Of a stretch of 48,225 bases of DNA, positions 13,270-30,642 are shown piece by piece. Source of the DNA: Collinsella aerofaciens (GTDB taxonomy: Bacteria; Actinomycetota; Coriobacteriia; Coriobacteriales; Coriobacteriaceae); contig NZ_JAQLFJ010000013.1 in assembly GCF_028206795.1 (NCBI RefSeq), forward strand, positions 449 through 48,673, read 5' to 3'. Position 1 is the first letter of the stretch. Each line of letters begins with the position of its first letter. The notes below the pieces were generated by a model that was given only the letters and a program-made list of their open reading frames with translations, did not search any database and was not told the DNA's origin. Made by a program: the position numbers and the translations under genes.

Positions 13270-14823
13270 TTAGGCCTCGGTGGCGAGTACGCGACCCGTC
13301 ATCTCGGCGGAAGGCTCAATACCAGCCATGGTGAGCATGGTCGGAGCGATATCGGAAAGACGGCCGTCCTCGATACCGGTGAGCTGTGCCTTCTCATCAA
13401 CGATGATGAACGGCACGCGGTTGGTGGTGTGAGCCGTGAACGGATGCTTGGAACCGTCGGAAGCAACGTCAAACATGTGATCGGCGTTGCCGTGATCGGC
13501 GGTAATCAGCGCAAAGCCGCCCTTAGCGAGAATCGCCGGGACAACCTTGGACAGGGCATCGTCAACAGCCTCGACGGCCTTAACGGCAGCGTCGAAGACA
13601 CCGGTGTGACCAACCATGTCGCAGTTTGCGAAGTTCACGATGTAGAAATCAGCGCGATCCTCGTTGATGGCGGCGACAAGCTTCTCGGTAACCTCGGGAG
13701 CGCTCATCTCAGGTTGCAGGTCGTAGGTAGCGACCTTGGGAGAAGCGACGAGCACGCGCTCCTCGCCCTCCTTGGGCTCCTCGATGCCGCCGTTGAGGAA
13801 GAACGTCACGTGGGCGTACTTCTCGGTCTCGGCGGTGTGCAGCTGCTTCAGGCCATTGGCGGCGATAACGTCGGCCAGAACGTTCTCGGGGAACGTCTTG
13901 GGGAAGGCGACCTCGACGTCAAACGTCGGGTCGTACTCGGTCATCGTCACAAAGTGCGAAAGCTTGATCTGCTCGCGCTCAAAGCCGTCGAACTCCTTGT
14001 CCGTGAACACGCGAGTCATCTGACGAGCGCGGTCGGGACGGAAGTTGAAGAAGATGGCCGCGTCGCCCTCGTGGATGCCCTCGTTGTGGGCAGCGAAGGG
14101 CTCGACGAACTCGTCGCCGCGCGGATCCTTCTCGTAGTAGGCCTTGATACCGGCAACAGGGTCGGTATCGGCATCGGATGCGTTGACCATGACATCGTAG
14201 GCGCGCTGGATGCGCTCCCAACGGTTGTCACGGTCCATGGCCCAATAACGGCCCGAGACGGTGGCAACGCGAGCGTCGCAACCGGTCTCCTCGGAGATCT
14301 TAGCCAGGAAGGCGCAGAACTCACTCATGTAACCGGCACCGGACTGCGGGTCAACGTCGCGACCATCCATGAAGGCGTGGACGCGAACGGTCTTGACACC
14401 GTGCTCGGCAGCCATCTTGACCAGAGCCTCGACGTGGCTCATATGAGAATGAACACCGCCAGGGCTCATAAGGCCCATGAGGTGGAGAGTCTTGCCGTCA
14501 GCCTTGACGTCGTCCATAGCCTTGACGAAGACCTCGTTCTTGGCGATGGAGCCGTCCTTGATGGCATTGTTGATGCGCGAAAGCTCCTGGAACACGATGC
14601 GGCCGGCACCGATGTTGAGGTGACCCACCTCGGAGTTGCCCATCTGGCCATCGGGAAGACCCACGTCCTCGCCCGAAGCGCCGAGCGTGGTGTGGGGGTA
14701 CTTCTCGTACAGGCTATCGAGGAAGGGCGTCTTGGCAGCGGCGACGGCGTTCTCGCCATCGGCCGGAGCCAGGCCGCAACCATCCATGATGATCAGGAGT
14801 GCAGGAAGATGACGCTGTGCCAT
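13270..14823 (-). CDS. gpmI: 2,3-bisphosphoglycerate-independent phosphoglycerate mutase
   Basis: A 517-residue manganese enzyme that converts 3-phosphoglycerate to 2-phosphoglycerate. It has the alkaline-phosphatase-type N-terminus (LIIMDGCGLAP), the serine nucleophile in MGNSEVGH, HAFMDGRD, and the C-terminal metal-binding ITADHGNAD and PFTAHT. The length is normal. It starts 5 nt after the tpiA stop and is the last gene of the pgk-tpiA-gpmI transcript. Confidence 0.97.
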   Translation of the reverse strand: MAQRHLPALLIIMDGCGLAPADGENAVAAAKTPFLDSLYEKYPHTTLGASGEDVGLPDGQMGNSEVGHLNIGAGRIVFQELSRINNAIKDGSIAKNEVFVKAMDDVKADGKTLHLMGLMSPGGVHSHMSHVEALVKMAAEHGVKTVRVHAFMDGRDVDPQSGAGYMSEFCAFLAKISEETGCDARVATVSGRYWAMDRDNRWERIQRAYDVMVNASDADTDPVAGIKAYYEKDPRGDEFVEPFAAHNEGIHEGDAAIFFNFRPDRARQMTRVFTDKEFDGFEREQIKLSHFVTMTEYDPTFDVEVAFPKTFPENVLADVIAANGLKQLHTAETEKYAHVTFFLNGGIEEPKEGEERVLVASPKVATYDLQPEMSAPEVTEKLVAAINEDRADFYIVNFANCDMVGHTGVFDAAVKAVEAVDDALSKVVPAILAKGGFALITADHGNADHMFDVASDGSKHPFTAHTTNRVPFIIVDEKAQLTGIEDGRLSDIAPTMLTMAGIEPSAEMTGRVLATEA

Positions 14824-14828
14824 ATGTC

Positions 14829-15596
14829 CTACTCGCCTGCCTTGACGACCATAGAGGCGAAGTCGGCAGCCTTGAGCGAAGCGCCGCCCACGAGGGCGCC
14901 GTCGACGTCGGGCTTGGCGACGAGCTCGGCGATGTTGCCGGGCTTGGCAGAGCCACCATAGAGAACGCGGATGCCGTCGGCGAGCTCCTCACCGAACATC
15001 TCCTTGAGGGTCTCACGGATAGCGCCGCAGACCTCCTGAGCGTCCTCGGCGGTAGCGGTCTTGCCGGTGCCGATGGCCCAGATGGGCTCGTAGGCGACGA
15101 CGACCTGCTTGGGGCAAGTGATCTCGAGACCCTCGAGACCAGCCTTGACCTGGTTCACGACGTGCTCGACATAGGTGCCGGCCTCGCGGACCTCAAGGGA
15201 CTCGCCGCAGCAGAAGACAGGAACAAGACCGGCGGCAACGAGGGCCTTGGCCTTCTTGTTCTGATCCTCGTCGGTCTCGTGGAAGTAATCACGACGCTCG
15301 GAGTGACCGATGATGCAGTAGGTGCAGCCAGCGGACTTGAGCATGTCGCAAGAAGACTCACCGGTGAAGGCACCCTTGGCCTCCCAGTACACGTTCTGTG
15401 CACCGAGGGCGATGGGGGCAGCCTGAATACGGTCATGAACCGTGGTGATGTCGATGGTCGGAGGGCAGACGAGCACCTCGACGCCAGCCGGAACCTCGGG
15501 CAGAGCCTGAGCCAGCTCGTCGGCGAGCTTGGCGGCCTCGGCGACGTCGTTGTTCATCTTCCAGTTACCAGCGATAAGAAGGGTGCGATTAGGCAT
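14829..15596 (-). CDS. tpiA: Triosephosphate isomerase
   Basis: A 255-residue TIM barrel that interconverts dihydroxyacetone phosphate and glyceraldehyde 3-phosphate. GNWKMN (substrate Lys), CIIGHSERR (catalytic His) and VAYEPIWAIGTG (catalytic Glu and loop 6) are intact. The ATG at 15596 lies 8 nt inside the end of pgk, implying translational coupling. Confidence 0.98.
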   Translation of the reverse strand: MPNRTLLIAGNWKMNNDVAEAAKLADELAQALPEVPAGVEVLVCPPTIDITTVHDRIQAAPIALGAQNVYWEAKGAFTGESSCDMLKSAGCTYCIIGHSERRDYFHETDEDQNKKAKALVAAGLVPVFCCGESLEVREAGTYVEHVVNQVKAGLEGLEITCPKQVVVAYEPIWAIGTGKTATAEDAQEVCGAIRETLKEMFGEELADGIRVLYGGSAKPGNIAELVAKPDVDGALVGGASLKAADFASMVVKAGE

Positions 15597-16779
15597 CGAG
15601 AAGCGCCTCCACTCCGGGCAGGGCCTTACCCTCGACGAGCTCCATGGAAGCGCCACCACCGGTAGAGATCCAGCTCATCTTGTCGGCCAGGTTGAACTTG
15701 TTGACGGCTGCGACAGAGTCGCCACCACCGATGATCGAGGTGCAATCAGCCTCGGCGACAGCCTCGGCGATAGCCTGGGTGCCGTGAGCGAAGTTATCGA
15801 ACTCGAAGACGCCCATGGGGCCATTCCAGAACACAGTCTTGGCACCCTTGACAGCCTCGGCGTAGAGCTCCTCGGTCTTGGGGCCGATGTCCATACCCTC
15901 ACGGTCGTCGGGGATAGCGTCGGAAGCGACAACCTCGGGGACAGCATCCTCGCCAAAGTGATCAGCAACGCGGTTGTCGATGGGGAGCAGGATCTTGACG
16001 CCCTTCTCCTCGGCCTTCTTGAGCATCTCACCGGCGCGCTCGACCCAGTCCTCTTCCTTGAGGGACTGACCGACGGACAGGCCCTGAGCCAGGAAGAAGG
16101 TGTAGGCCATGCCGCCACCGATGATCAGGGTATCAGCGGAGTCGATGAGGTGATCGAGAACGCCGATCTTGGAGGAAACCTTGGAACCGCCGACGATGGC
16201 GACGAAGGGGCGCTCGGGCTCGGCGAAGATGCCGGTCAGCGTGTCGACCTCCTTCTCGAGCAGGAAGCCGGCGACAGCAGGCAGGTAAGCGGCGGGGCCC
16301 ACGACGGAACCCTGGGCGCGGTGTGCGGTGCCGAAGGCATCGAGAACGAAGACGTCACCATAGGAAGCGAGCTTCTTGGCGATCTCGGGATCGTTCTTCT
16401 TCTCACGCTTGTCAAAACGGACGTTCTCGAGAACGAGGACCTTGCCCGGCTCGACGGCGGCGACAGCCTCGGCGGCCTTCTCGCCATACGTGTCGGCAAC
16501 AAAAGCAACGTCAAGGCCAGAGAGCTCAGCGAGCTTCTTGGCGACAGGCTCGAGGGAAAGCTCGGGCTGGAAGCCAGTGCCCTCAGGACGGCCGAGGTGG
16601 CTCATGAGGATGACGCGAGCGTTGTGCTCAACGAGGTAGTTGATGGTGGGCAGGGCAGCCTTGATACGGGTGGTGTCGCCAACGACGCCATCCTTGATAG
16701 GCACGTTGAAGTCAACGCGGACGAGAACGCGCTTGCCGTCGACATCGATGTCGCGGACGGTCTTCTTGGTAAAGGCCAT
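15589..16779 (-). CDS. pgk: Phosphoglycerate kinase
   Basis: A 396-residue monomeric kinase that makes ATP from 1,3-bisphosphoglycerate. It has the N-terminal VRVDFNVP, SHLGRPEG, and the C-terminal nucleotide-binding GGGDSVAAV. The ATG at 16779 follows AAAGG. It begins the pgk-tpiA-gpmI operon and is separated from gap by a terminator, so gap and pgk can be expressed at different levels. Its leader holds a perfect 7-bp inverted repeat (16803-16825). Confidence 0.98.
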   Translation of the reverse strand: MAFTKKTVRDIDVDGKRVLVRVDFNVPIKDGVVGDTTRIKAALPTINYLVEHNARVILMSHLGRPEGTGFQPELSLEPVAKKLAELSGLDVAFVADTYGEKAAEAVAAVEPGKVLVLENVRFDKREKKNDPEIAKKLASYGDVFVLDAFGTAHRAQGSVVGPAAYLPAVAGFLLEKEVDTLTGIFAEPERPFVAIVGGSKVSSKIGVLDHLIDSADTLIIGGGMAYTFFLAQGLSVGQSLKEEDWVERAGEMLKKAEEKGVKILLPIDNRVADHFGEDAVPEVVASDAIPDDREGMDIGPKTEELYAEAVKGAKTVFWNGPMGVFEFDNFAHGTQAIAEAVAEADCTSIIGGGDSVAAVNKFNLADKMSWISTGGGASMELVEGKALPGVEALLDA

Positions 16780-16802
16780 GTTTGCTTCTACCTTTCGTAC
16801 GT

Positions 16803-16825
16803 GTCTGCCTCCCATTACGGCAGAC
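16803..16825. promoter_or_regulatory. Inverted repeat in the pgk leader
   Basis: GTCTGCC (16803-16809) and GGCAGAC (16819-16825) form a perfect 7-bp inverted repeat around 9 nt, 24 nt before the pgk start. It could be an operator or a leader stem-loop; the regulator is unknown. Confidence 0.45.
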
Positions 16826-16834
16826 GATTTCCTA

Positions 16835-16883
16835 TAAAAAGGGCGCGACCCTAGGGTGTAAGCCCTATGAGGCCGCGCCCTTC
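16835..16883 (-). terminator. Terminator of gap
   Basis: Minus strand: AAGGGCGCG pairs with CGCGCCCTT across an inner loop that has its own TAGGG/CCCTA pairing, followed by TTTTTA. It lies about 40 nt after the gap stop and before pgk. Confidence 0.88.
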
Positions 16884-16919
16884 TTTAGACGCTCAACGAG
16901 CTATTCGCTAAAAGCTAAA

Positions 16920-17945
16920 TTAAGCAACGAACTTCTCGAAGTACTTGATGGTGCGGACCATCTGAGAGGTGTAGGAGTTCTCGTTGTCGTACCAAGAGGT
17001 GACCTGAACGAGGGTCTGGCCGTTGCCGAGATCAGAGCACATGGTCTGAGTGGCGTCGAAGATGGAGCCGTGGGTCTCGCCGACGATGTCGCGGGAGACG
17101 ATCTGGTCCTCGTTGTAGGCGAAGGTATCGGGGATGGTCTCGGCGTAGGCCTTCATGGCAGCGTTGACCTCGTCGACGGTGACCTTCTTGTCAACGACGG
17201 CGTAGAGGTTGGTCAGCGAGCCGGTCGGCGTCGGGACGCGCTGGGCGGCACCGATGAGCTTGCCGTTGAGCTCGGGGAGAACCAGGCCGATGGCCTTGGC
17301 AGCGCCCGTGGTGTTCGGGACGATGTTCTCGGAGCAGGCGCGGGAGCGACGGAAGTTGCCCTTGCGCTGCGGGCCGTCGAGCGGCATCTGGTCGCCGGTG
17401 AAGGCGTGGATGGTGGTCATGATGCCGGAGACGATGGGAGCGAAGTCGTTCAGGCCCTTGGCCATCGGGGCGAGGCAGTTGGTGGTGCAGGAAGCAGCGG
17501 AGATGATGTTGTCCTCAGCGGTCAGCGTCTCATGGTTGACGTTGTACACGATGGTGGGCAGATCGCTGCCGGCCGGAGCGGAGATGACGACCTTCTTGGC
17601 GCCAGCGTTGATGTGGGCCTGAGCCTTAGCCTTGCTGGTGTAGAAGCCGGTGCACTCGAGAACGACGTCGACGTCGAGGTCGCCCCAAGGCAGGTTGTTG
17701 GCGTCGGCCTCCTTGTAGATCTTGATCTCCTTGCCGTCAACGGTGATGGAATCCTCGCCAGCGACGACCTCGTGATCGCGAGCATAGTTGCCCTGCGTGG
17801 AGTCGTACTTCAGCAGGTAAGCGAGCATATCGGGAGAGGTGAGGTCGTTGATAGCGACGATCTCGGAGCCCTCATGACCGAACATCTGGCGGAAGGCCAG
17901 ACGACCGATGCGACCGAAGCCGTTAATAGCAACCTTTACTGCCAT
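16920..17945 (-). CDS. gap: Glyceraldehyde-3-phosphate dehydrogenase, type I
   Basis: A 341-residue NAD-dependent enzyme of glycolysis. The Rossmann motif INGFGRIGR is at the N-terminus and the catalytic Cys lies in [19 protein letters not shown] and WYDNENSY are also present. The ATG at 17945 follows AAAGGAG. It sits between whiA and pgk as in many actinobacteria but has its own terminator. Upstream are a candidate -10 TATATT and a CG-centred palindrome at 18078-18095. Confidence 0.98.
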
Positions 17946-18017
17946 TGTGTCTCCTTTCGTAAGGCCCCCGCAAGCTACAGCGCCTGCCGTTGAGGCCCAC
18001 AAACTAACCACTCGCCT

Positions 18018-18023
18018 AATATA
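18018..18023 (-). promoter_or_regulatory. Candidate -10 of the gap promoter
   Basis: Minus strand TATATT preceded by a run of eight A. A -35 at the correct distance (TGAAAT or GTGAAA) is poor, which would suit a promoter helped by an activator bound upstream. Confidence 0.4.
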
Positions 18024-18077
18024 CCTTTTTTTTGGCTTGAATTTCACGAGAATGCTCGAAATTGAAAATCAAATTTG

Positions 18078-20093: not shown

Positions 20094-20780
20094 TTACGCC
20101 TCAAGCGCAGCCTTGAACCAACTTGTAATACTCGTGGGGTGCGTGATAGCGGTGCCGACGACAACGGCCCACGCGCCGGCGTCGATTGCAGCGCGAGCCT
20201 TCTCGGGCGTATGCACGCGACCCTCGCAAATGATGGGAAGGCCGGGAAATTCCTCGGTCGCCTGACGCAGGAGCGGCAGGTCGGGGCCATCGGCCATGGT
20301 GCAGTCGATGGCGGCGACACCGTGAGAGAGTGTGGTGGATACCAGGTCGAAGCCCATATCAACCGCACGGCGAATGTCCTCGATGGTGGCACAATCCGCC
20401 ATCAGGAGCACACCCTCCTCGTGCAGCGGGCGGAAGGTATCCTCGACCGACTTGCCATCGGGACGCGGACGATCGGTGGCGTCGATCGCCACGATATCGG
20501 CACCCGCAGCAACGCAGGCACGAGCGTGACGCAGCGTCGGCGTGATGTAAACGCCCTCGTGCCCGTCCTTCCACAGACCGATGACGGGAACCTCACAGCG
20601 ACCCTTAATGGCGGCAATGTCGGCAAGGCCCTGGCAGCGAATGGCGGCGGCGCCGCCAAGCTCGCAAGCGCGAGACATTTGAGCCATGGTCTCGGGCGTA
20701 CGAAGCGGCTCGCCCATATACGCCTGAACGCTCACGACGAGTTTGCCCTTCAGGGACTGGATCAAAGGATCAACGGTCAT
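20094..20780 (-). CDS. nanE: N-acetylmannosamine-6-phosphate 2-epimerase
   Basis: A 228-residue TIM-barrel enzyme that converts ManNAc-6-P to GlcNAc-6-P. Family features include VSVQAYMGEPLR, AIRCQG, GLWKDG (catalytic Lys), IDATDRPRP and ICEGRVHTPEKA. The ATG at 20780 follows AAAGG; an open 13-residue extension to 20819 has no support. It is the last gene of the sialic acid operon and is separated from the ROK kinase by a long palindrome. Confidence 0.93.
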   Translation of the reverse strand: MTVDPLIQSLKGKLVVSVQAYMGEPLRTPETMAQMSRACELGGAAAIRCQGLADIAAIKGRCEVPVIGLWKDGHEGVYITPTLRHARACVAAGADIVAIDATDRPRPDGKSVEDTFRPLHEEGVLLMADCATIEDIRRAVDMGFDLVSTTLSHGVAAIDCTMADGPDLPLLRQATEEFPGLPIICEGRVHTPEKARAAIDAGAWAVVVGTAITHPTSITSWFKAALEA

Positions 20781-20805
20781 GTTCGACTCAACCTTTCTCA
20801 AAACA

Positions 20806-20903
20806 GCCTTCTGAGACACCGCACCTTGACGTTCAAACCGTCGCTCGCGTACCGAAGTACGCTTCGCTCCTCTTTCACGTCAATCTGCGGCACCTCAGAA
20901 GGC
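20806..20903. repeat. Palindromic repeat, 98 nt, copy B of the GCGTAC-core family
   Basis: Outer arms of 27 nt (20806-20832 and 20877-20903, starting GCCTTCTGAG) pair at about 22 positions, with a central perfect hairpin GCGTAC-CGAA-GTACGC (20847-20862) on the same axis. The inner 44 nt (20833-20876) match 2173-2216 in reverse orientation. It lies between the ROK kinase gene and nanE, inside the nan operon. Confidence 0.8.
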
Positions 20904-20920: not shown

Positions 20921-21886
20921 TTACTTCAACGATGCAAGAAGGTGTTCGGCGGCACCGATGAGCGGCGCGTCGCCCTCCAGAGAGCCGATGAGAATCGGCG
21001 TGTCCTGAAGCGGGTCGAGCGCCTGGCTGGCATAGCCCTCGTGCACCGAGTCCTTCCACGTCTGTGAACGCCAATCGGGACCTTGGTGAATCACGCCGCC
21101 CGAAAGCACGATGACCTCAGGGTCCAGGATGTTAGCGAGCGAGCCCAGGCTGGCGCCCAGCGCAAAGCCGGCGTCATGAATGACCTCGGTCGCCTTTGCG
21201 TCGCCTGCGCGGCACAGGTCGTTCACGTCACGGCCGACCGAAGGACGGCTGGGGTCGACGCGGCCAAAACGCTCATCGTACATGCGCCCGATTGATGTTC
21301 CGGAAGCAACCGACTCCAGATGGCCGGAACGCCCGCAGGCGCAGGGAATGCCGGCGGCAGCCGAGCACTCGATGTGGCCCATATGGCCGGCAGCACCATG
21401 GAAGCCCTGCATCACGCGGCCGTTCTCGACATATGCGCCGCCGATGCCCGTACCGATGCCCAAACACAAGACGGAGAACTTGCCCTTGCCGACGCCCCAG
21501 TGGGCCTCGCCCAGAGCATGAGCCTGCACGTCGCCTACAACGGCAACGGGAAGGCCGAGGTCCTCGCGCAGACGCGGCCCCAACTGAACGCCGGACCAGC
21601 CGGGCATAATCTCATTGGCATACGCGATGGCGCCCGTCTTGGGGTCGACGACACCGGCAGCGCCGATGCCAACTCCGAGGACCTCGACATCGGGATTTGC
21701 CTCAAGAGCTGCCTTGATAGACGCCTCGATGCGCTGGAAGACCGCTTCACCACCCTCCTGGGCCTCGGTGGGAACCTCAGCCTCAAAAACGGGATGGGGC
21801 ACACCGCCGTCAGCCGGGTACTCCATGATGGCAGTCGCGATCTTAGTTCCGCCGATATCGACAGAGCAGACGTACTTGTTCTCCAT
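20921..21886 (-). CDS. nanK: ROK family kinase, probable N-acetylmannosamine kinase
   Basis: A 321-residue sugar kinase of the ROK family, expected to phosphorylate ManNAc. It has the ATP motif DIGGTK (10-15), the catalytic Asp in VGDVQAHALGE (Asp119), GIGTGIGG (143-150) and a zinc-binding region. That region reads His171, CACG (182-185), then His189 where most ROK proteins have a third Cys (CxCGxxGCxE). GGAG precedes the ATG at 21886. Its place between nanA and nanE supports ManNAc as substrate, but ROK members also include glucokinases. Confidence 0.82.
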   Translation of the reverse strand: MENKYVCSVDIGGTKIATAIMEYPADGGVPHPVFEAEVPTEAQEGGEAVFQRIEASIKAALEANPDVEVLGVGIGAAGVVDPKTGAIAYANEIMPGWSGVQLGPRLREDLGLPVAVVGDVQAHALGEAHWGVGKGKFSVLCLGIGTGIGGAYVENGRVMQGFHGAAGHMGHIECSAAAGIPCACGRSGHLESVASGTSIGRMYDERFGRVDPSRPSVGRDVNDLCRAGDAKATEVIHDAGFALGASLGSLANILDPEVIVLSGGVIHQGPDWRSQTWKDSVHEGYASQALDPLQDTPILIGSLEGDAPLIGAAEHLLASLK

Positions 21887-21958
21887 GTCGTTCTCCTTCG
21901 GAGACAAAACAACTACAGGAAATGCGCCGTCAGGCTAGCCATCACAGCGCGGTAAAGG

Positions 21959-22057: not shown

Positions 22058-22978
22058 TTAAAGGAGACCGTTGTCCTGGAGGACCTTGCGAATCGCCTCG
22101 ACGTTCTCACCGGTCATGGCCTTCACCGGGCGCGGCATGGTCGGGCTGTCGAAGATGCCCATGAGGTTCATAGCGGTCTTGAAGGCGCCGACGCCACCGG
22201 CATAGCCCTGGACGCCCGAGGTGACATCCCAGATGTGCGAAATCTCATTGAGGCGATCCTGCTCGGCCTTGACGGTAGCCCAGTCACCAGCCTGAGCGGC
22301 CTTCCACTGACGAACGTAGCCCTCGGGCTCAACGTTGGCGAGGCCCGGAACGGAACCGTCGGCGCCACCGAGATAGGCACCGTCGACGACGACCTCATGG
22401 CCGGTAAGGATGCTCATCGGATGGCCGTTCTTCTCGTTCTCCTGAATGAGGTAGCGGAACGAGATGTCATCGCCCGAGGAATCCTTGACGCCAGCCAGGA
22501 CGCCCTCGGCGCCGAGCTTAGCAAGGAGCTTCCAGGGGAGCTTGGTGTGGACGCACACGGGGATGTCGTAGGCGAAGATGGGCAGGTCGAGTTCCTCGTG
22601 AAGGATGCGGAAGTGCTCCTCGACCTCGGTCATGCCCTGCAGGGCATAGAACGGGCAGGTGGCGACGAGCGCATCGGCGCCCAGCTCCTGAGCGACCTTG
22701 CCGTGCTCGATCATGCGCTCGGTCTCGGTGTCGATGATGCCGACCAGAACGGGAACGCGGTGGTCGACGATACGGACGGCCTCTGCGACAATCTGGCGAC
22801 GGCGCTCGTCGGTGGAGAAGACGACCTCGCCCGAGGAGCCCAGGAAGAACAGGCCATCGACGCCGGCATCGATCATGCGGTTGATGCTGCGCTCAAAGGA
22901 GGCAACGTCGAGCTGGTGGTCTTCGGTATCGGGAACAACGACGGGAGGGATAACGCCGGTGAATTTCTGAGTTGCCAC
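22058..22978 (-). CDS. nanA: N-acetylneuraminate lyase (DapA/NanA family)
   Basis: A 306-residue aldolase of the dihydrodipicolinate synthase/NAL family, expected to split N-acetylneuraminate into ManNAc and pyruvate. GSSGE (47-51), Tyr137 in YDIP and the Schiff-base Lys165 in AGVKDSSGD are intact. A GTG start at 22978 is chosen because AAGGAG lies directly upstream and no ATG is nearby. The family also contains other keto-acid aldolases, so the nan call leans on nanE, the ROK kinase and the transporter in the same operon. Confidence 0.87.
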   Translation of the reverse strand: MATQKFTGVIPPVVVPDTEDHQLDVASFERSINRMIDAGVDGLFFLGSSGEVVFSTDERRRQIVAEAVRIVDHRVPVLVGIIDTETERMIEHGKVAQELGADALVATCPFYALQGMTEVEEHFRILHEELDLPIFAYDIPVCVHTKLPWKLLAKLGAEGVLAGVKDSSGDDISFRYLIQENEKNGHPMSILTGHEVVVDGAYLGGADGSVPGLANVEPEGYVRQWKAAQAGDWATVKAEQDRLNEISHIWDVTSGVQGYAGGVGAFKTAMNLMGIFDSPTMPRPVKAMTGENVEAIRKVLQDNGLL

Positions 22979-23046: not shown

Positions 23047-23898
23047 CTAGGCCAAAGAACACGAATAGAACGTTTGGTTAAAGAAGTCGACGACTTCGTT
23101 TTCGAACGCATTGATGCGCTCGTGAGCGTATTTGGCATAGATGATATGCCTCCGGTCACACTCAAGACCGTTGAATACGGCAAACTGGCCCTTGGGATCA
23201 CTCACGGTATCCATGAGCGATGTGCCCATGAGCACCGAGCCACGAACCCGAGGCGACAGCGTCTCGAGACCGCTGGGAAGCGGATTGGCAAGCGCCGTGC
23301 AGGCAAGGCCCCGCTCGTCCAGAGCAGAAACCGCCAGCGCGACACCGCCGCCAAGGCCCTCGCCCCATGCAAAGATGCGGTCGGGATCCATGCCATCAAG
23401 GTTGCGCGCCACCTTCGCCAACGCGCAGCCCCAACGGACACGCTCGACAAAAGCAGGCGAGGTAATCCCCTGCTGCAGATCGCTGGATCCAATAGTCTCA
23501 TCGTCCAGCGCAAGCACGGCATATCCCATGGCGGCAAACCGCGTCATGTGATGCCATCCCCGCACGGGTCGGTCGATGTCATGGAACATCAGACACAGCG
23601 GAACAAGCTCGGATCTTCGGGCGCAACCAGAGGGCTCAATCAAACGGCCGTGCACGACATACCCGCCGAGCTCAAAGGAAACCTCGGAGTAGCGCGCGCA
23701 CGGATTGGCGAAATCAATCGCCGTAACGGTCAGCCCGCAAACCTCAAGGTCCGAAGCGGCTGTCTCCAACTCGGAAACATCCGCAGAAGCATCGCCGCGC
23801 CAATCCCGGAAATCAGAGAGCCTTGACGAAACCGTCCCAGCAATTCCCGCAAGCTCGGGGACAATCAGCTCATCGATATTGCTCTCGCACTTAGACAT
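23047..23898 (-). CDS. CE7 acetylesterase-like protein lacking the catalytic serine
   Basis: A 283-residue alpha/beta-hydrolase paralogous to the next gene upstream (23891-24868). The C-terminal halves align well: Asp230 (LMDTVSDP) and His259 (YAHERI) match the catalytic Asp and His. The nucleophile motif GASQGG has become GEGLGG, so Ser is replaced by Gly181 (codon GGC). The RGQ-like segment is also lost (LDDETIGSSD). It is therefore predicted to have no serine-esterase activity and might be a regulatory or binding partner of its paralogue. It starts within the last 8 nt of that gene, so the two are co-translated. Confidence 0.8.
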   Translation of the reverse strand: MSKCESNIDELIVPELAGIAGTVSSRLSDFRDWRGDASADVSELETAASDLEVCGLTVTAIDFANPCARYSEVSFELGGYVVHGRLIEPSGCARRSELVPLCLMFHDIDRPVRGWHHMTRFAAMGYAVLALDDETIGSSDLQQGITSPAFVERVRWGCALAKVARNLDGMDPDRIFAWGEGLGGGVALAVSALDERGLACTALANPLPSGLETLSPRVRGSVLMGTSLMDTVSDPKGQFAVFNGLECDRRHIIYAKYAHERINAFENEVVDFFNQTFYSCSLA

Positions 23899-24868
23899 GA
23901 GCCTCCCCTCCCTTGCAGAAAAATGGAATGATCAGATCGTCAAAATCCTGAATCTCCTCGTGACCGAAGCCTTCAAAGAACTCATGACGCTTTTCACAGG
24001 TCAGGTTGTTGTAGACTGCAAACTGCGTCGCCGGAGGACAGACGATATCGGCTGTGCCCGTGCCAAACAGCACGGGGCATTTGACTATGGGGGCAAAGTT
24101 CTTGGAATCGAAGTACGCCAGCTTGGCATAGGCCTCGTCAATACGAGTCGAGTCCTCGTCAAACCAGCGAGACCAATAGCGCAGACCCTCGTAGGCAATG
24201 TCGTCGGCATCCAAATCCCAGACCAGGCGGAAATCCGACAGGAAGGGATAGAGGATGGCGGCGCGATTGATAAGCTCGCTGTTAAGCGCACAGGTCGCAA
24301 TGCCCAAACCGCCGCCCTGCGATGCGCCGTTCACAAATACACGGGCAAGATCGATGCCCTCGAGCTCACGAACAATACGGCAAAGAATGCGGATATCTTG
24401 GTGCAAGCGGACATAGTAGAGGTTGGCCGGGTCGCCGTCGATACCGGCGACGATATGGCCCGCGACCGTCGTTCCCTCAAATCCACCAATGTCCTCGGAG
24501 GGACCTCCTTGGCCGGGGCAGTCGAGGGCGATGAGTGCCATGCCCATGCCCGCAAACGACGCCTGCTCAAACCAGCTGCGGCTTGCACCCGGATACCCAT
24601 GGAACTGAAGTACCAATGGCACGGGCTCGTCCGAGACAGGTTTAAGGTACTTGGCGTGCAGGCGAGCGCCGCACATGCCGGTATACCAGAGATCGAAAAG
24701 CTGGCAGGTCACGGCATCGGTGACCGATGCCGCCTCGATCGCATAGTCAAGCCCGACGGCGTCAGCCTCGGCCATGCGATCCTTCCAAAAGAGATCGAAA
24801 TCTGATGGACGGGACATAGCGCCTCGATATTCACCAAATTGATGTTGTAGCTCCTGAGCACTTGGCAT
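23891..24868 (-). CDS. CE7 family acetylesterase, probable sialate O-acetylesterase
   Basis: A 325-residue cytoplasmic alpha/beta-hydrolase of the acetyl xylan esterase/cephalosporin-C deacetylase type. It shows the oxyanion GYPG region, CPGQGG, the nucleophile motif GASQGGG (Ser183), catalytic Asp274 in GTADIVCPP and His303 in GFGHEE. CE7 genes also occur in streptococcal sialic-acid loci, so removal of O-acetyl groups from imported sialic acid is the likely job. The start is uncertain: ATG 24868 is used, ATG 24817 with GAGG close by is possible, and TTG 24883 is less likely. Confidence 0.85.
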   Translation of the reverse strand: MPSAQELQHQFGEYRGAMSRPSDFDLFWKDRMAEADAVGLDYAIEAASVTDAVTCQLFDLWYTGMCGARLHAKYLKPVSDEPVPLVLQFHGYPGASRSWFEQASFAGMGMALIALDCPGQGGPSEDIGGFEGTTVAGHIVAGIDGDPANLYYVRLHQDIRILCRIVRELEGIDLARVFVNGASQGGGLGIATCALNSELINRAAILYPFLSDFRLVWDLDADDIAYEGLRYWSRWFDEDSTRIDEAYAKLAYFDSKNFAPIVKCPVLFGTGTADIVCPPATQFAVYNNLTCEKRHEFFEGFGHEEIQDFDDLIIPFFCKGGEAHV

Positions 24869-24948: not shown

Positions 24949-25776
24949 TTACTCGCCGAGCTTGGGATGCAGCAGCGACGGCGCAGCGCCGAGCAGCATC
25001 TTAGTGTAGGGGTCTCGAGGATGCTGGAAAACCTGCTTGGCCTCGCCCTGCTCGACGATCTTGCCGCCATTCATGACGATGATGTCGTCGGAAATATAGC
25101 GGACCGTCTGGATGTCATGGCTGATGAACACCATAGCCAGGCCGAGTTCCTTCTTAAGGTCGGTCAGCAGGTTGAGAATCTGCGCGCGGACCGAAACGTC
25201 CAGAGCCGAGGTAGGCTCGTCGGCGATGATGGCATCGGGGTTCAGCGACAGGGCACGGGCAATTGCGACGCGCTGGCGCTGGCCGCCCGAAAGCTGGCCG
25301 GGAAGAACCTCGGCGGCGGAGGAGGGCAGACCGGTGAGCTCCAAGAGCTCCTTGACGCGCTTCTCCTGCTCGGCCTCGGTAGCCAGGTTGTGGACGCGCA
25401 TGGGGTCGAGCAGTTGCTCGCGAACGACCATGCGGGGGTTGAGCGCCGTGGCCGGGTTCTGGAACACGACCGAGATGACGCGACCCATGTGGCGACGGTC
25501 CTCGGCGGTACGCTTGGTGACGTCCTTGCCCTTAAAGTAGACCTTGCCGCTCGTGGGGGCCTGCAGGCCGCACATGACGTTAGCCGTGGTGGACTTTCCG
25601 CAACCGGACTCGCCGACGATGCCGATGGTCTGTCCGGGCATGAGCTTAATCGTTACACCCTGGACGGCGTGAACCAGGTTGGGGTGCAGAATCGAGCCGG
25701 TACGGGTCCTAAAGGTGACGTGGACGTCATCAAGGAAGATGATCGGCTCGACGCCGTTGACTGCGGTCTCGCTCAT
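24949..25776 (-). CDS. ABC importer ATPase, sialic-acid (Sat-like) transporter
   Basis: A 275-residue OppF-like ATPase with Walker A GESGCGKST, signature LSGGQRQ, Walker B IIADEP and switch His in FISHD. It is shorter than the oppF product in this window and stops right after the nucleotide-binding domain (LGAAPSLLHPKLGE), lacking the C-terminal cysteine-rich oligopeptide domain. Its ATG abuts the stop of the permease-ATPase fusion, with GGAGGTGATG as ribosome binding site, so the two are coupled and probably form the ATPase pair. Confidence 0.88.
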   Translation of the reverse strand: MSETAVNGVEPIIFLDDVHVTFRTRTGSILHPNLVHAVQGVTIKLMPGQTIGIVGESGCGKSTTANVMCGLQAPTSGKVYFKGKDVTKRTAEDRRHMGRVISVVFQNPATALNPRMVVREQLLDPMRVHNLATEAEQEKRVKELLELTGLPSSAAEVLPGQLSGGQRQRVAIARALSLNPDAIIADEPTSALDVSVRAQILNLLTDLKKELGLAMVFISHDIQTVRYISDDIIVMNGGKIVEQGEAKQVFQHPRDPYTKMLLGAAPSLLHPKLGE

Positions 25777-27795: not shown

Positions 27796-28752
27796 CTACA
27801 CCGTCCTGATGCGCGGGTTGATGAGCAGGTAGAGCATGTCAACCACGATGTTGATGATGATGAAGGCAAGAGCAACGACGATAACGACGCCCTGAACCAG
27901 GTTCGCCTCGTTGCCCTGAACGCCCTGCAGAATCGCAGTGCCCATGCCGGGGAGGTTGAAGATAACCTCGATGACGACGGCGCCGCCCATGAGGTAGCCG
28001 ATCTTAAGACCGAGGGTGGTGACCGGGGTGATCAGCGCATTGCGAAGAACGTTGATGCCGACGACGACCTTCTCGGGAACGCCGGCGCCACGAGCCATAC
28101 GGACATAGTCCTTGTCGAGCTCCTCGACCATGGCGGTACGCACGATACGAGTCATCTGGCCCGTCAGCGGAAATGCCAAGGCGATAGCGGGCATGATCAT
28201 ACGTCCCAGATAGCCAACCGGATTCGTGGTGAAGTGAGGCAGAGCACCCGATGCCGGGAGCACCTTAAGGTAGGAAGAGAACAGCAGGATCAACAGAACG
28301 GCAAGCCAGAACGACGGGGTTGCCAAGCCGGCGATGGAAAAGACGCGGATCACTTGGTCCGGCCATTTGTCGCGATACAGTGCCGCGATGACGCCGAGCA
28401 AAAACGAAACGACCGCACCGATGGCAAGACCGATGAAGGTCAGCTGCATCGTGACGGGCAGGGCCGTGGAGATGCGCTTGGCAACGGAGTTGCGGGCAGC
28501 GCCGTAGGTACCCATGTCGCCATGAATCAAATCGCCCATATAGCGCACGTAGCGCACAGGCCAGGGGTCGTCCAGACCATACTTCTCATGGTACTCGGCA
28601 ACCGCCTCGGGCGAGGCACCGTCACCCAACGCCGTGTAGGCGGGGTCGGTCTTGGAGAACGACATAAGGAAGAACACCAGGACGGTGACGCCCAATGCCA
28701 TGATCGGCAGCGCCACAAGACGCCTTCCAATCAAACGTAGCAAGTTGTTCAC
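27796..28752 (-). CDS. ABC permease (OppB type), sialic-acid (Sat-like) transporter
   Basis: A 318-residue inner-membrane permease with an N-terminal membrane segment (LIGRRLVALPIMALGVTVL), an extracytoplasmic region of about 75 residues, and the EAA loop (MARGAGVPEKVVVGINVLRN). The start is GTG 28752, since GGGGAG lies just upstream and no ATG fits. It is 3 nt from the fusion gene and would pair with the fusion's permease half. Confidence 0.9.
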   Translation of the reverse strand: MNNLLRLIGRRLVALPIMALGVTVLVFFLMSFSKTDPAYTALGDGASPEAVAEYHEKYGLDDPWPVRYVRYMGDLIHGDMGTYGAARNSVAKRISTALPVTMQLTFIGLAIGAVVSFLLGVIAALYRDKWPDQVIRVFSIAGLATPSFWLAVLLILLFSSYLKVLPASGALPHFTTNPVGYLGRMIMPAIALAFPLTGQMTRIVRTAMVEELDKDYVRMARGAGVPEKVVVGINVLRNALITPVTTLGLKIGYLMGGAVVIEVIFNLPGMGTAILQGVQGNEANLVQGVVIVVALAFIIINIVVDMLYLLINPRIRTV

Positions 28753-28792
28753 GTTCTCTCCCCTTTCTTTTGTCGGTAGGACCAACTGGTAT

Positions 28793-28909: not shown

Positions 28910-30523
28910 TTATGCCTTGACGGTCGCAACGCCCCTGAAGGACATGCTCGTCGTGCCGATGCCCTTGAAGCCGTCGAGAGCCTCGCCGTTGGGCGCGGTG
29001 GACGGATCGTCCCAGGAAGCGGAGACGGTCTTGACGTGGACAACGGGGTACAGAACGGCGTTGTCGGCGATGATGTCGAAGCACTCGTTCCACTTCTTCT
29101 GCTGCTCGTCGCCCTCGGCGGCAAGAGCCTCGTCCATGAGACCGTGAAGCTTCTGCCACTCAGCGGACTCCTTCCACGGGCAACGGGTCTGCATCCAGAC
29201 GTTGTCGCCATACCACCAGTTGAGCAGCAGGTCGGGGTCAGCGCCGAAGCAGGAAGGATCGCCAGGGGCAAGGAGGATATCGTAGGCCTCGCCGCCGTCG
29301 ATGGCAGCGTAGGTGGCCGGCGAGGTATCGGTCTGGATGGTCACCTCAAAGCCGAGAGCGTCGAGGTCGTTCTTGACCTGGGCGGCCATGCCCTTGATCT
29401 GCTCGTTGTCGGTGGTGCGCAGGGTGATGGCACCCGGGGTGATGCCGGACTCCTCGATGAGCTTCTTAGCCTTCTTGGCGTCGGTCTTGTACACCGTGGA
29501 AGCCTCATGATAATTGGTGAAGCTCTTGGGCAGGTAGCAGCTGGCAGCGGTGGCAAGGCCGGCAAAGGTGTTGCTGACCATCTTCTCGGTGTCGAGCGCA
29601 TACATGACAGCCTGACGGACCTTGACGTTGTTCCAAGGCTCCTTGGCGACGTTGAACATGATGAAGCGGGTGCCGAAACCCTGAACGTTATCGATCTTGC
29701 AGCCGGCGCTCTCGAGCTGGTCGACGGCGTCAGCGGTAACGAGCTCCATAACGAGCGTGGAGCCCTCCTGCTGAGCGGTAACGCGAGCGGTGGGGTCGGT
29801 CAGGATGCTGTACTGGATCTTCTTATCCTCGGCAGCATACTCACCGTTGTACTCGGGGTTGGGAACCAGAGTGATCTCGGTATCGGAGATAGAGTCGTAC
29901 ATCCAGGGGCCGGAGCCGATCGGCTGCTTGGCGCGATCCTCCTCGGTCTGGGTGGCCGGGGTAACGCGGATGATGGCAAGACGATCCTTGAGCAGAGAGA
30001 AGTTGGGGACCTTGGTCTTGACCGTCACGGTGCTGGCGTCCTTAGCCTCGATGGACTCGAAGGGCTGGAAGAACGGAGCATAGGTAGCGGAAGCGGCGCA
30101 AGCGGTGTAGGAGGCAACGACATCGTCAGCGGTGACCTCGGTGCCATCGGAGAACTTGGCGCCCTTGCGGATGGTGACCTCGAAAGTGGTGTCGTCCACA
30201 GACTTGGGATCGTCGGTGGCGAGCTCGTTGAAGGTACTGTAGTCGTGGTAATCGATGCCGTAGAGGCCCTCGACGACGTGCCAGTTAGCACCCAGGCCCA
30301 CAGCGGAGCCGGTGCTGGCGGGATCGAAGCTGGACGGAGCGTAAGCGGAACCAGCGGTGATCACGCCGCCGCCACGGTTGGCGGAATCGGTGGAACCGGA
30401 AGCGGAACCCTCGTCGCTAGAGCTGCCACCGCAGCCGGTGAGACCAAGCCCTGCGACAGCAGCGACGCTGCCGGTGAGGCCGAGGAACGAACGCCTGGAC
30501 ATACCCTTGTTGATGATGGCCAT
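28910..30523 (-). CDS. Family 5 solute-binding lipoprotein, probable sialic-acid binding protein
   Basis: A 537-residue extracytoplasmic lipoprotein. The N-terminus has SRRSFLGLTG (twin-arginine-like) and the lipobox LTGC, followed by a Gly/Ser-rich linker. The mature domain is SBP family 5 (VTIRKGAKFSDGTEVT, VKVRQAVMYALDTEKM). AGGAGA precedes the ATG at 30523. It is the first gene of a nine-gene operon that ends with nanE, which suggests sialic acid rather than peptides as ligand. Peptides or another amino sugar remain possible. Confidence 0.85.
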   Translation of the reverse strand: MAIINKGMSRRSFLGLTGSVAAVAGLGLTGCGGSSSDEGSASGSTDSANRGGGVITAGSAYAPSSFDPASTGSAVGLGANWHVVEGLYGIDYHDYSTFNELATDDPKSVDDTTFEVTIRKGAKFSDGTEVTADDVVASYTACAASATYAPFFQPFESIEAKDASTVTVKTKVPNFSLLKDRLAIIRVTPATQTEEDRAKQPIGSGPWMYDSISDTEITLVPNPEYNGEYAAEDKKIQYSILTDPTARVTAQQEGSTLVMELVTADAVDQLESAGCKIDNVQGFGTRFIMFNVAKEPWNNVKVRQAVMYALDTEKMVSNTFAGLATAASCYLPKSFTNYHEASTVYKTDAKKAKKLIEESGITPGAITLRTTDNEQIKGMAAQVKNDLDALGFEVTIQTDTSPATYAAIDGGEAYDILLAPGDPSCFGADPDLLLNWWYGDNVWMQTRCPWKESAEWQKLHGLMDEALAAEGDEQQKKWNECFDIIADNAVLYPVVHVKTVSASWDDPSTAPNGEALDGFKGIGTTSMSFRGVATVKA

Positions 30524-30642
30524 GTCTTCTCCTATCAATAGAGAATCTTACCCGGGAGCACCTAGACGCGCCCCCGCGCAACTTGCGGACGATATATACC
30601 TTACCTACCGACGAACCCAACTGAGGTGCCGCGCTCGGCGAC

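Follow-up and report, generated by a model that had tools for sequence, protein, structure and literature searches.

A CE7-type esterase and its probable nucleophile-less CE7-fold partner, adjacent or fused, in a sialic-acid operon of Collinsella aerofaciens and its relatives

Two overlapping CE7-like genes in a nan operon

The window analyzed here is a 48,225-nucleotide stretch of a Collinsella aerofaciens contig. On its reverse strand lie two genes, referred to here as A and B, that an earlier sequence-only reading had described as CE7-like and overlapping by 8 nt: the first with a full Ser183-Asp274-His303 triad, the second with GEGLGG for GASQGG, Gly (GGC) for the nucleophilic Ser, and Asp230 and His259 aligned with the catalytic Asp and His. 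Each of these observations was confirmed (Table 1). The Pfam profile AXE1 (PF05448) matches both products, A with 278 bits over nearly the entire profile and B with 87.6 bits. A matches the structure 3fcy, a CE7 protein of Thermoanaerobacterium (E = 1.2e-70). A carries the GxSQGG nucleophile motif and the HE dipeptide (H303-E304) at the catalytic His, and has PGQ where CE7 enzymes have RGQ. Profile, fold, and triad mark A as a CE7-like esterase with a variant signature. B has the CE7 fold and profile and the HE dipeptide (H259-E260) but lacks both GxSQGG and RGQ. Among the relatives examined below, PGQ replaces RGQ in 43 of 46 readable paired A sequences, with Arg in the other 3, while 12 of 12 unpaired CE7 proteins outside the A/B clade keep both Ser and the RGQ Arg. 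No second CE7-like frame of at least 200 aa was found in the flanks of those 12 genes (about 1.5 kb, less at contig ends).

Table 1. Features of the A/B locus and its operon (positions in the window)
Feature	Position	Strand	Properties and basis
SatA-like solute-binding protein (SBP_bac_5)	28910..30538	-	PDB 5za4/5z99/5yyb, E 3e-92 to 1e-91
ABC permease, SatB-like (named by position)	27796..28785	-	BPD_transp_1
Fused ABC permease + ATPase, 671 aa	25777..27792	-	BPD_transp_1 + ABC_tran in a single protein
ABC ATPase	24949..25776	-	ABC_tran
A, CE7 acetylesterase	23891..24868	-	325 aa; S183/D274/H303 triad, HGY, PGQGG, GASQGG, HEE; structure match in text
Purine-rich Shine-Dalgarno-like stretch AAGGGAGGGGAGG	23902..23914	-	Inside the 3' end of A, precedes the B ATG; read directly
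A stop/B start overlap, 8 nt (ATGTCTAA)	23891..23898	-	Read from sequence
B, CE7-fold pseudoenzyme	23047..23898	-	283 aa; GEGLGG (G181), D230, H259, R120, E260-R261-I-N263-x-F-E266
Codon 181 of B, GGC (Gly), nucleophile position	23356..23358	-	Homologue alignment
N-acetylneuraminate lyase-like (DHDPS family)	22058..22972	-	Best PDB match 5c54, E 4.9e-71
ROK kinase, probable ManNAc kinase	20921..21907	-	Profile match; role from context
NanE, ManNAc-6-P epimerase	20094..20819	-	NF002231, 264.6 bits (cut-off 189)

The proposed sialic-acid context was also borne out: matches to SatA-like, NanA-like, ROK, and NanE proteins place the pair within a SatABCD/NanA/NanK/NanE-type operon, with the transporter genes upstream of A and B and the NanA-like aldolase, the ROK kinase, and NanE downstream. 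The SatA-like protein matches 5z99, which is SatA according to PMC10017367, with an E value of 4.7e-92 in a PDB search, the next distinct protein following at 2e-28. Together with its permeases and ATPases, this binding protein defines a SatABCD-type system, for which sialate transport is putative. Neither A nor B has a signal-like hydrophobic N terminus, as read directly from the translations, so both should act in the cytoplasm on sialates brought in by the Sat-type transporter.

The arrangement recurs in relatives. Beyond 21 close Collinsella loci, the full order SatA-PermB-PermC/ATP-ATP-A-B-NanA-ROK-NanE was found with all nine parts in 30 of 40 loci; the remaining 10 end at contig edges, and the genes present there agree with it in order and strand, with no contradictions. 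One exceptional pair, in an Oscillospiraceae bin (L103, 5171-9726), sits beside a peptide-type ABC transporter, an FAD-binding flavoprotein, and a GFO/IDH/MocA oxidoreductase. No NanA, ROK, or NanE matches were found in that 16.5-kb locus, and the pair there may have another sialate or sugar as its target.

Several details of the neighborhood were noted in passing. The NanA-like protein scores far under the NCBIfam cut-offs (NanA, 85.6 against 382 bits; DapA, 121 against 206 bits), and its nearest solved structure, 5c54, carries the name DHDPS/N-acetylneuraminate lyase. In Atopobium sp. UBA2090 (L052/L108) the NanA-like gene is interrupted, giving frames of 181 and 274 aa, apparently through a frameshift or an error of assembly. 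The permease-ATPase fusion recurs in the other Coriobacteriales loci long enough to include it, except for one split frame (L065/L109); permease and ATPase are separate frames in the Anaerococcus, Erysipelotrichaceae, and L103 loci. Downstream of the nan operon, at 13270 to 18047, the translations read by eye as a glycolytic row (phosphoglycerate mutase, TPI, PGK, and GAPDH).

Substituted and conserved residues in B

We next consider the nucleophile position across homologues. Among the best 120 of 280 B homologues above the cut-off, 116 are 283 aa long, and in all 116 residue 181 is Gly and D230 and H259 are invariant. In a second alignment of 48 diverse B sequences, which represent two families within the window's order together with several records labelled Bacillota, the nucleophile column contains Gly in 45, Arg in 2, Asp in 1, and Ser in none; among the 48 paired A rows, S183 is present in all but one, which has a gap, and H303 in all. 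Orthologues bearing Ser, which would have made the window strain an outlier, were thus looked for in both sets and did not appear. A recent mutation, a sequencing error, or a strain peculiarity as the source of Gly181 is ruled out, since the loss of Ser is fixed across homologues. The supposed route of the change, one transition from AGC, is not supported: in 22 Collinsella sequences the Ser codon of A is TCG (21) or TCT (1) and never AGC, and the Gly codon of B is GGC (18) or GGT (4).

Nor does B differ from A in the nucleophile only, as had been claimed from the window sequence. In the B of the window, HDI stands in place of HGY, the PGQ of A has no counterpart, the beta-interface segment measures 22 residues against a median of 40 in A, and about 42 residues are gone between nucleophile and Asp. 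Across the 48 B sequences the Gly of HGY is replaced by Asp in 45, Tyr is found at the oxyanion position in none, and RGQ in none; the catalytic Asp (D230) is kept in 43 and the His (H259) in 42. The inter-subunit features of CE7 hexamers are an N-terminal extension, a three-helix insertion, and a beta-interface loop (PMC6209228). The beta-interface segment has a median length of 25 residues in B, 40 in A, and 41 in unpaired CE7 proteins, although it reaches at least 40 residues in 9 of 48 B sequences, so that shortening is not universal. The helix-insertion segment has a median of 32 residues in B (12 in the window) against 54. Because 18 of 48 B rows retain the full 54-residue insertion, its absence is probably a later loss in the remaining lineages. 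In A, the median lengths of both segments (40 and 54) are normal. Conserved residues that distinguish paired A were not significantly enriched in these interface segments (13 of 24 conserved positions, against 14 of 43 for the other, shared conserved residues; P = 0.12), and we do not use this comparison as evidence.

B also has conserved residues of its own. R120, R261, N263, and E266 are each present in 47 of 47 B rows (L071 dropped), where A has Ser, Glu, mostly Gln, and Asp, respectively, and E260 is present in 48 of 48. In the 116 close homologues R120, E260, N263, and E266 are invariant and R261 is found in 115. Some of these counts are shaped by how the rows were found: a contig scan used the single pattern ER[IV]N[ADE]FE[ND], which guarantees E260, R261, N263, and E266 by construction in the six rows that it contributed (L101, L103, L129, L130, L131, and L133). 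In the 42 rows found without it, R120, E260, R261, N263, and Gly181 are each present in 42 and E266 in 41, with one gap. A relative of the Anaerococcus fused protein (L150), recovered by an independent protein search, reads YPKYEYERINDYED, keeping ERIN with Phe265 changed. Among 40 fused proteins, ERxNxFE is present in 38, and a G-E/D-G elbow is present in the B part of all 40.

These residues bear on whether B could be an enzyme in its own right, using Asp and His, with a new Asp107 and Glu180, for acid-base chemistry on a sialate intermediate, its fusion to A being a pathway convenience. Some nucleophile-free alpha/beta hydrolases do such chemistry, and retention of D230 and H259, Glu or Asp at position 180 in 46 of 48 B sequences, Asp at 107 in 45 of 48, and an intact AF2-predicted fold of B are all compatible with it. 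Against it stand the missing oxyanion Tyr and six diverged B sequences without the catalytic His. Three Atopobium-type sequences (L039 to L041) have Gly for Asp and Tyr for His, and three Bacillota fused forms (L130, L131, and L133) have Tyr or Arg for His and have lost GEG and Asp107; all six keep R120, E260, R261, N263, and E266, three of them being pattern-found. An Asp-His dyad as the universal function of B is therefore not supported, and we regard an independent enzymatic role as improbable. Together, though on few independent rows, these sequences suggest that selection acts on a surface or pocket distinct from the relic triad.

B could also be a ligand sensor or regulator that holds sialic acid or another metabolite in the relic pocket and either tunes A allosterically or acts separately. 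The conserved residues map to alpha3 and the C-terminal helix, which are counted among the substrate-site walls in PbAcE (PMC6209228), and the two conserved Arg residues could hold a carboxylate. However, the same residues are equally compatible with an A-B interface, and Pfam finds no DNA-binding or other output domain in B. We consider a sensor possible but on balance doubtful.

Co-occurrence, fusion, and selection

To determine how strictly B accompanies A, we searched 395 genomes of the window's order. A was matched in 65 and B in 63, with 61 common to both; the unshared matches (4 for A only and 2 for B only) were all weak (E = 2e-6 to 5e-4). The B query also matches A, and B was therefore verified at the loci themselves (40 plus 21, covering all 61). 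The order is A then B in 61 of 61 of these Coriobacteriales-order genomes; the pair, whose constant adjacency had been in question, is in each of them either separate and adjacent (48) or fused (13). The separate pairs comprise 21 Collinsella loci with an identical 8-nt overlap, the same 8-mer in 21 of 21 loci checked, and 27 others. Three of the fused loci (L063, L066, and L068) are truncated by contig ends. None of the 61 genomes has A with a frameshifted or missing B.

NanE (E ≤ 1e-20) is present in 179 of the 395 genomes, 59 of which have A and B and 120 of which have neither at strength, indicating that A and B come and go jointly; two further genomes with the pair (G033 and G126) fall outside the NanE matches. 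Judged from these genomes, A and B are an all-or-none module in a subset of nan systems.

The contig scan returned 55 loci, largely from the same genomes, with A directly before B or in-frame with it (in L110, the A end only). Among the sources are Collinsella aerofaciens, C. provencensis, Lancefieldella rimae, Parafannyhessea umbonata, Olegusella massiliensis, and Atopobiaceae bins. The scan also returned Bacillota-labelled records, of which several are metagenome bins: two from Anaerococcus and one from Erysipelotrichaceae, all three fused, two from Oscillospiraceae, and one from Clostridia. The fusions in the two Anaerococcus records and the Erysipelotrichaceae bin adjoin nan genes. In the order to which the L103 genome belongs, 28 of 295 genomes sampled had matches, and true B was present in only 2 (E = 3e-98 and 2e-97), both with A beside it and one being the L103 genome itself; twelve further loci from this search are ordinary CE7 genes with Ser. 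For the order that includes the Anaerococcus record, 4 of 199 genomes sampled had matches; 2 of these carry the fused protein, one of them being the record itself. By these counts the A/B pair is rare outside the window's order. A search for plasmid carriage gave 3 partial CE7 matches, none reaching 80% coverage. One locus (L071, 6861-7774) has a B frame at a contig end with a stray A-type GDSQGG region and is probably a chimeric assembly.

An unrooted tree was built from 21 sequences each of A and B plus 10 unpaired CE7 proteins; in it, B is split off by a branch with support of 100/99 and A by another with 97/93; three B branches are very long. Two sequences with very long branches (S_L146 and S_L147) and 27 of the 48 rows each of A and B were left out of this tree. 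Most simply, the nucleophile was lost once, long ago. A separate tree of A sequences requires the fused state to have changed at least twice on starred branches, in a Bacillota clade and a Coriobacteriales clade, which implies either two origins of fusion or the splitting of an old fusion. Two paired rows (L134 and L135, the latter being the contig of L103) are labelled "single" in that tree, and the count is independent of both. The truncated A rows L063 and L066 appear as gaps in the 48-row alignment and were dropped from the A tree, the R120/R261/N263/E266 count, and the interface-enrichment test. The L071 pair was kept in that alignment and in the oxyanion and RGQ counts; its B row, its A row, or both were dropped from the R120/R261/N263/E266 count and the enrichment test.

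Selection on the two genes was compared within Collinsella, where B has a median dN/dS of 0.186 and A one of 0.047 (222 pairs with dS > 0.05, 22 sequences). In principle B could be a tandem duplicate that is decaying and persists through its place in the operon: it evolves faster than A and has lost segments. Yet it is under purifying selection, keeps its own residues over two phyla, forms one tree group, occurs in all 61 A genomes, and is fused to A in several lineages. Its dN/dS rules out random decay, and passive carriage in the operon is hardly credible. With an essential catalytic residue conservedly lost under purifying selection, B has the sequence properties of a pseudoenzyme. The core of the sequence-only reading, a pseudoenzyme kept as a partner and not decaying, is thus strongly supported (Ser in 0 of 48, the all-or-none pattern over 61 genomes, adjacency or fusion, dN/dS of 0.19, and at least two fusion or fission changes), but the argument from loss of the nucleophile only, which had been offered for it, was wrong.

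A proposed heteromeric esterase and its relation to known systems

Since B is kept beside A or fused to it in relatives, the inactive copy probably works together with the active one. In our view B is probably a dedicated CE7-derived subunit without a catalytic role of its own, bound to A in an obligate, stoichiometric complex that acts as a cytoplasmic sialate O-acetylesterase; the substrate, an O-acetylated sialate, is inferred from the operon context. In this scheme the SatABCD-type transporter would import sialates into the cytoplasm, and the A-B complex would strip their O-acetyl groups, which would let NanA cleave them. A would contribute the triad, and B would dock on A and contribute structure, gating, or substrate contacts through a face formed by alpha3 and the C-terminal helix (R120, E260, R261, N263, and E266), with no part in the chemistry. 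The complex would replace part of the usual CE7 homohexamer, and separate A and B chains would form the same complex as the fused proteins. For one fused homologue, AF2 gives a pLDDT of 92.0 and a pTM of 0.92 over 505 residues as a single chain, and the two domains are predicted to pack as one rigid body; a single-chain pTM bears on an A-B interaction only indirectly.

The absence of a nucleophile in B, purifying selection, the failure to find B without A, the coupling by gene overlap, and the fusions all favor an obligate subunit. Against it, A keeps the homohexamer segments; CE7 enzymes being described as homohexamers, A could work alone. The L103 pair has no nan-gene matches, and a pneumococcal CE7 enzyme, discussed below, acts partnerless. 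Translational overlap with A before B and co-occurrence in 61 of 61 genomes would also suit a B that folds or stabilizes A like a chaperone, or caps and inhibits it, without a lasting role in the active complex. The fused forms, however, join both domains covalently in what is predicted to be one body, and we find a transient role of this kind quite unlikely. More speculatively, the obligate subunit could belong to a hetero-oligomeric sialate O-acetylesterase, a novel CE7 assembly in which active subunits alternate with an ancient pseudoenzyme that has shed much of the machinery for homohexamers. Its conserved Arg/Asn/Glu face would dock on A to complete or gate the sialate site, nine-carbon acidic sugars would gain access to the otherwise closed CE7 ring, and fusion in several lineages would have fixed a 1:1 ratio; we advance this fuller model only tentatively.

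The locus offers a well-bounded bacterial enzyme-pseudoenzyme pair with natural fused versions as controls, set in the pathway by which Coriobacteriia from the gut and elsewhere, C. aerofaciens among them, use sialic acid. If the heteromer is real, CE7 is more than a family of homohexamers, "acetylxylan esterase" is the wrong name for B, and activity tests on A alone would be misleading.

That CE7 esterases are tied to sialic-acid use is already known, and axe orthologues are present in many gut species (PMC3658417). Pneumococcal Axe (SPD_1506) resembles A in this respect: it is a CE7 deacetylase active on mucin that requires Ser181, and it is reported to be intracellular, with some activity also in supernatants (PMC5352144). 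No contribution of Axe to colonization, to virulence, or to the use of mucin could be measured in that study. Axe is a single protein, active alone in vitro, and the accessible text of PMC5352144 mentions no pseudoenzyme partner, whereas A is paired with B. NanS/EstA-type sialate O-acetylesterases carry out the same proposed reaction in nan systems (PMC10017367, PMC3658417); however, NanS and the P. vulgatus enzyme (PMC10017367) are SGNH-type and not CE7, and the accessible text mentions no partner for them. The SatA-like protein links the operon to SatABCD transporters through its match to 5z99; here, an A-B esterase pair follows the transporter genes. The literature searched, which left most subscription papers outside its scope, yielded no description of a CE7 pseudoenzyme or of an A/B pair, and within that literature we rate the enzyme-pseudoenzyme pair as new for CE7. 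A and B share the fold of the CE7 acetyl xylan and cephalosporin C esterases (3fcy, 6fkx, 6agq, 1ods, and TM0077), and A has their full triad. Known CE7 enzymes, of which RGQ is a motif (PMC9728288, PMC9606172), have mainly been described as homohexamers of active subunits (PMC6209228, PMC9728288); in the pair described here, by contrast, one subunit type lacks the nucleophile, the HGY tyrosine, and RGQ.
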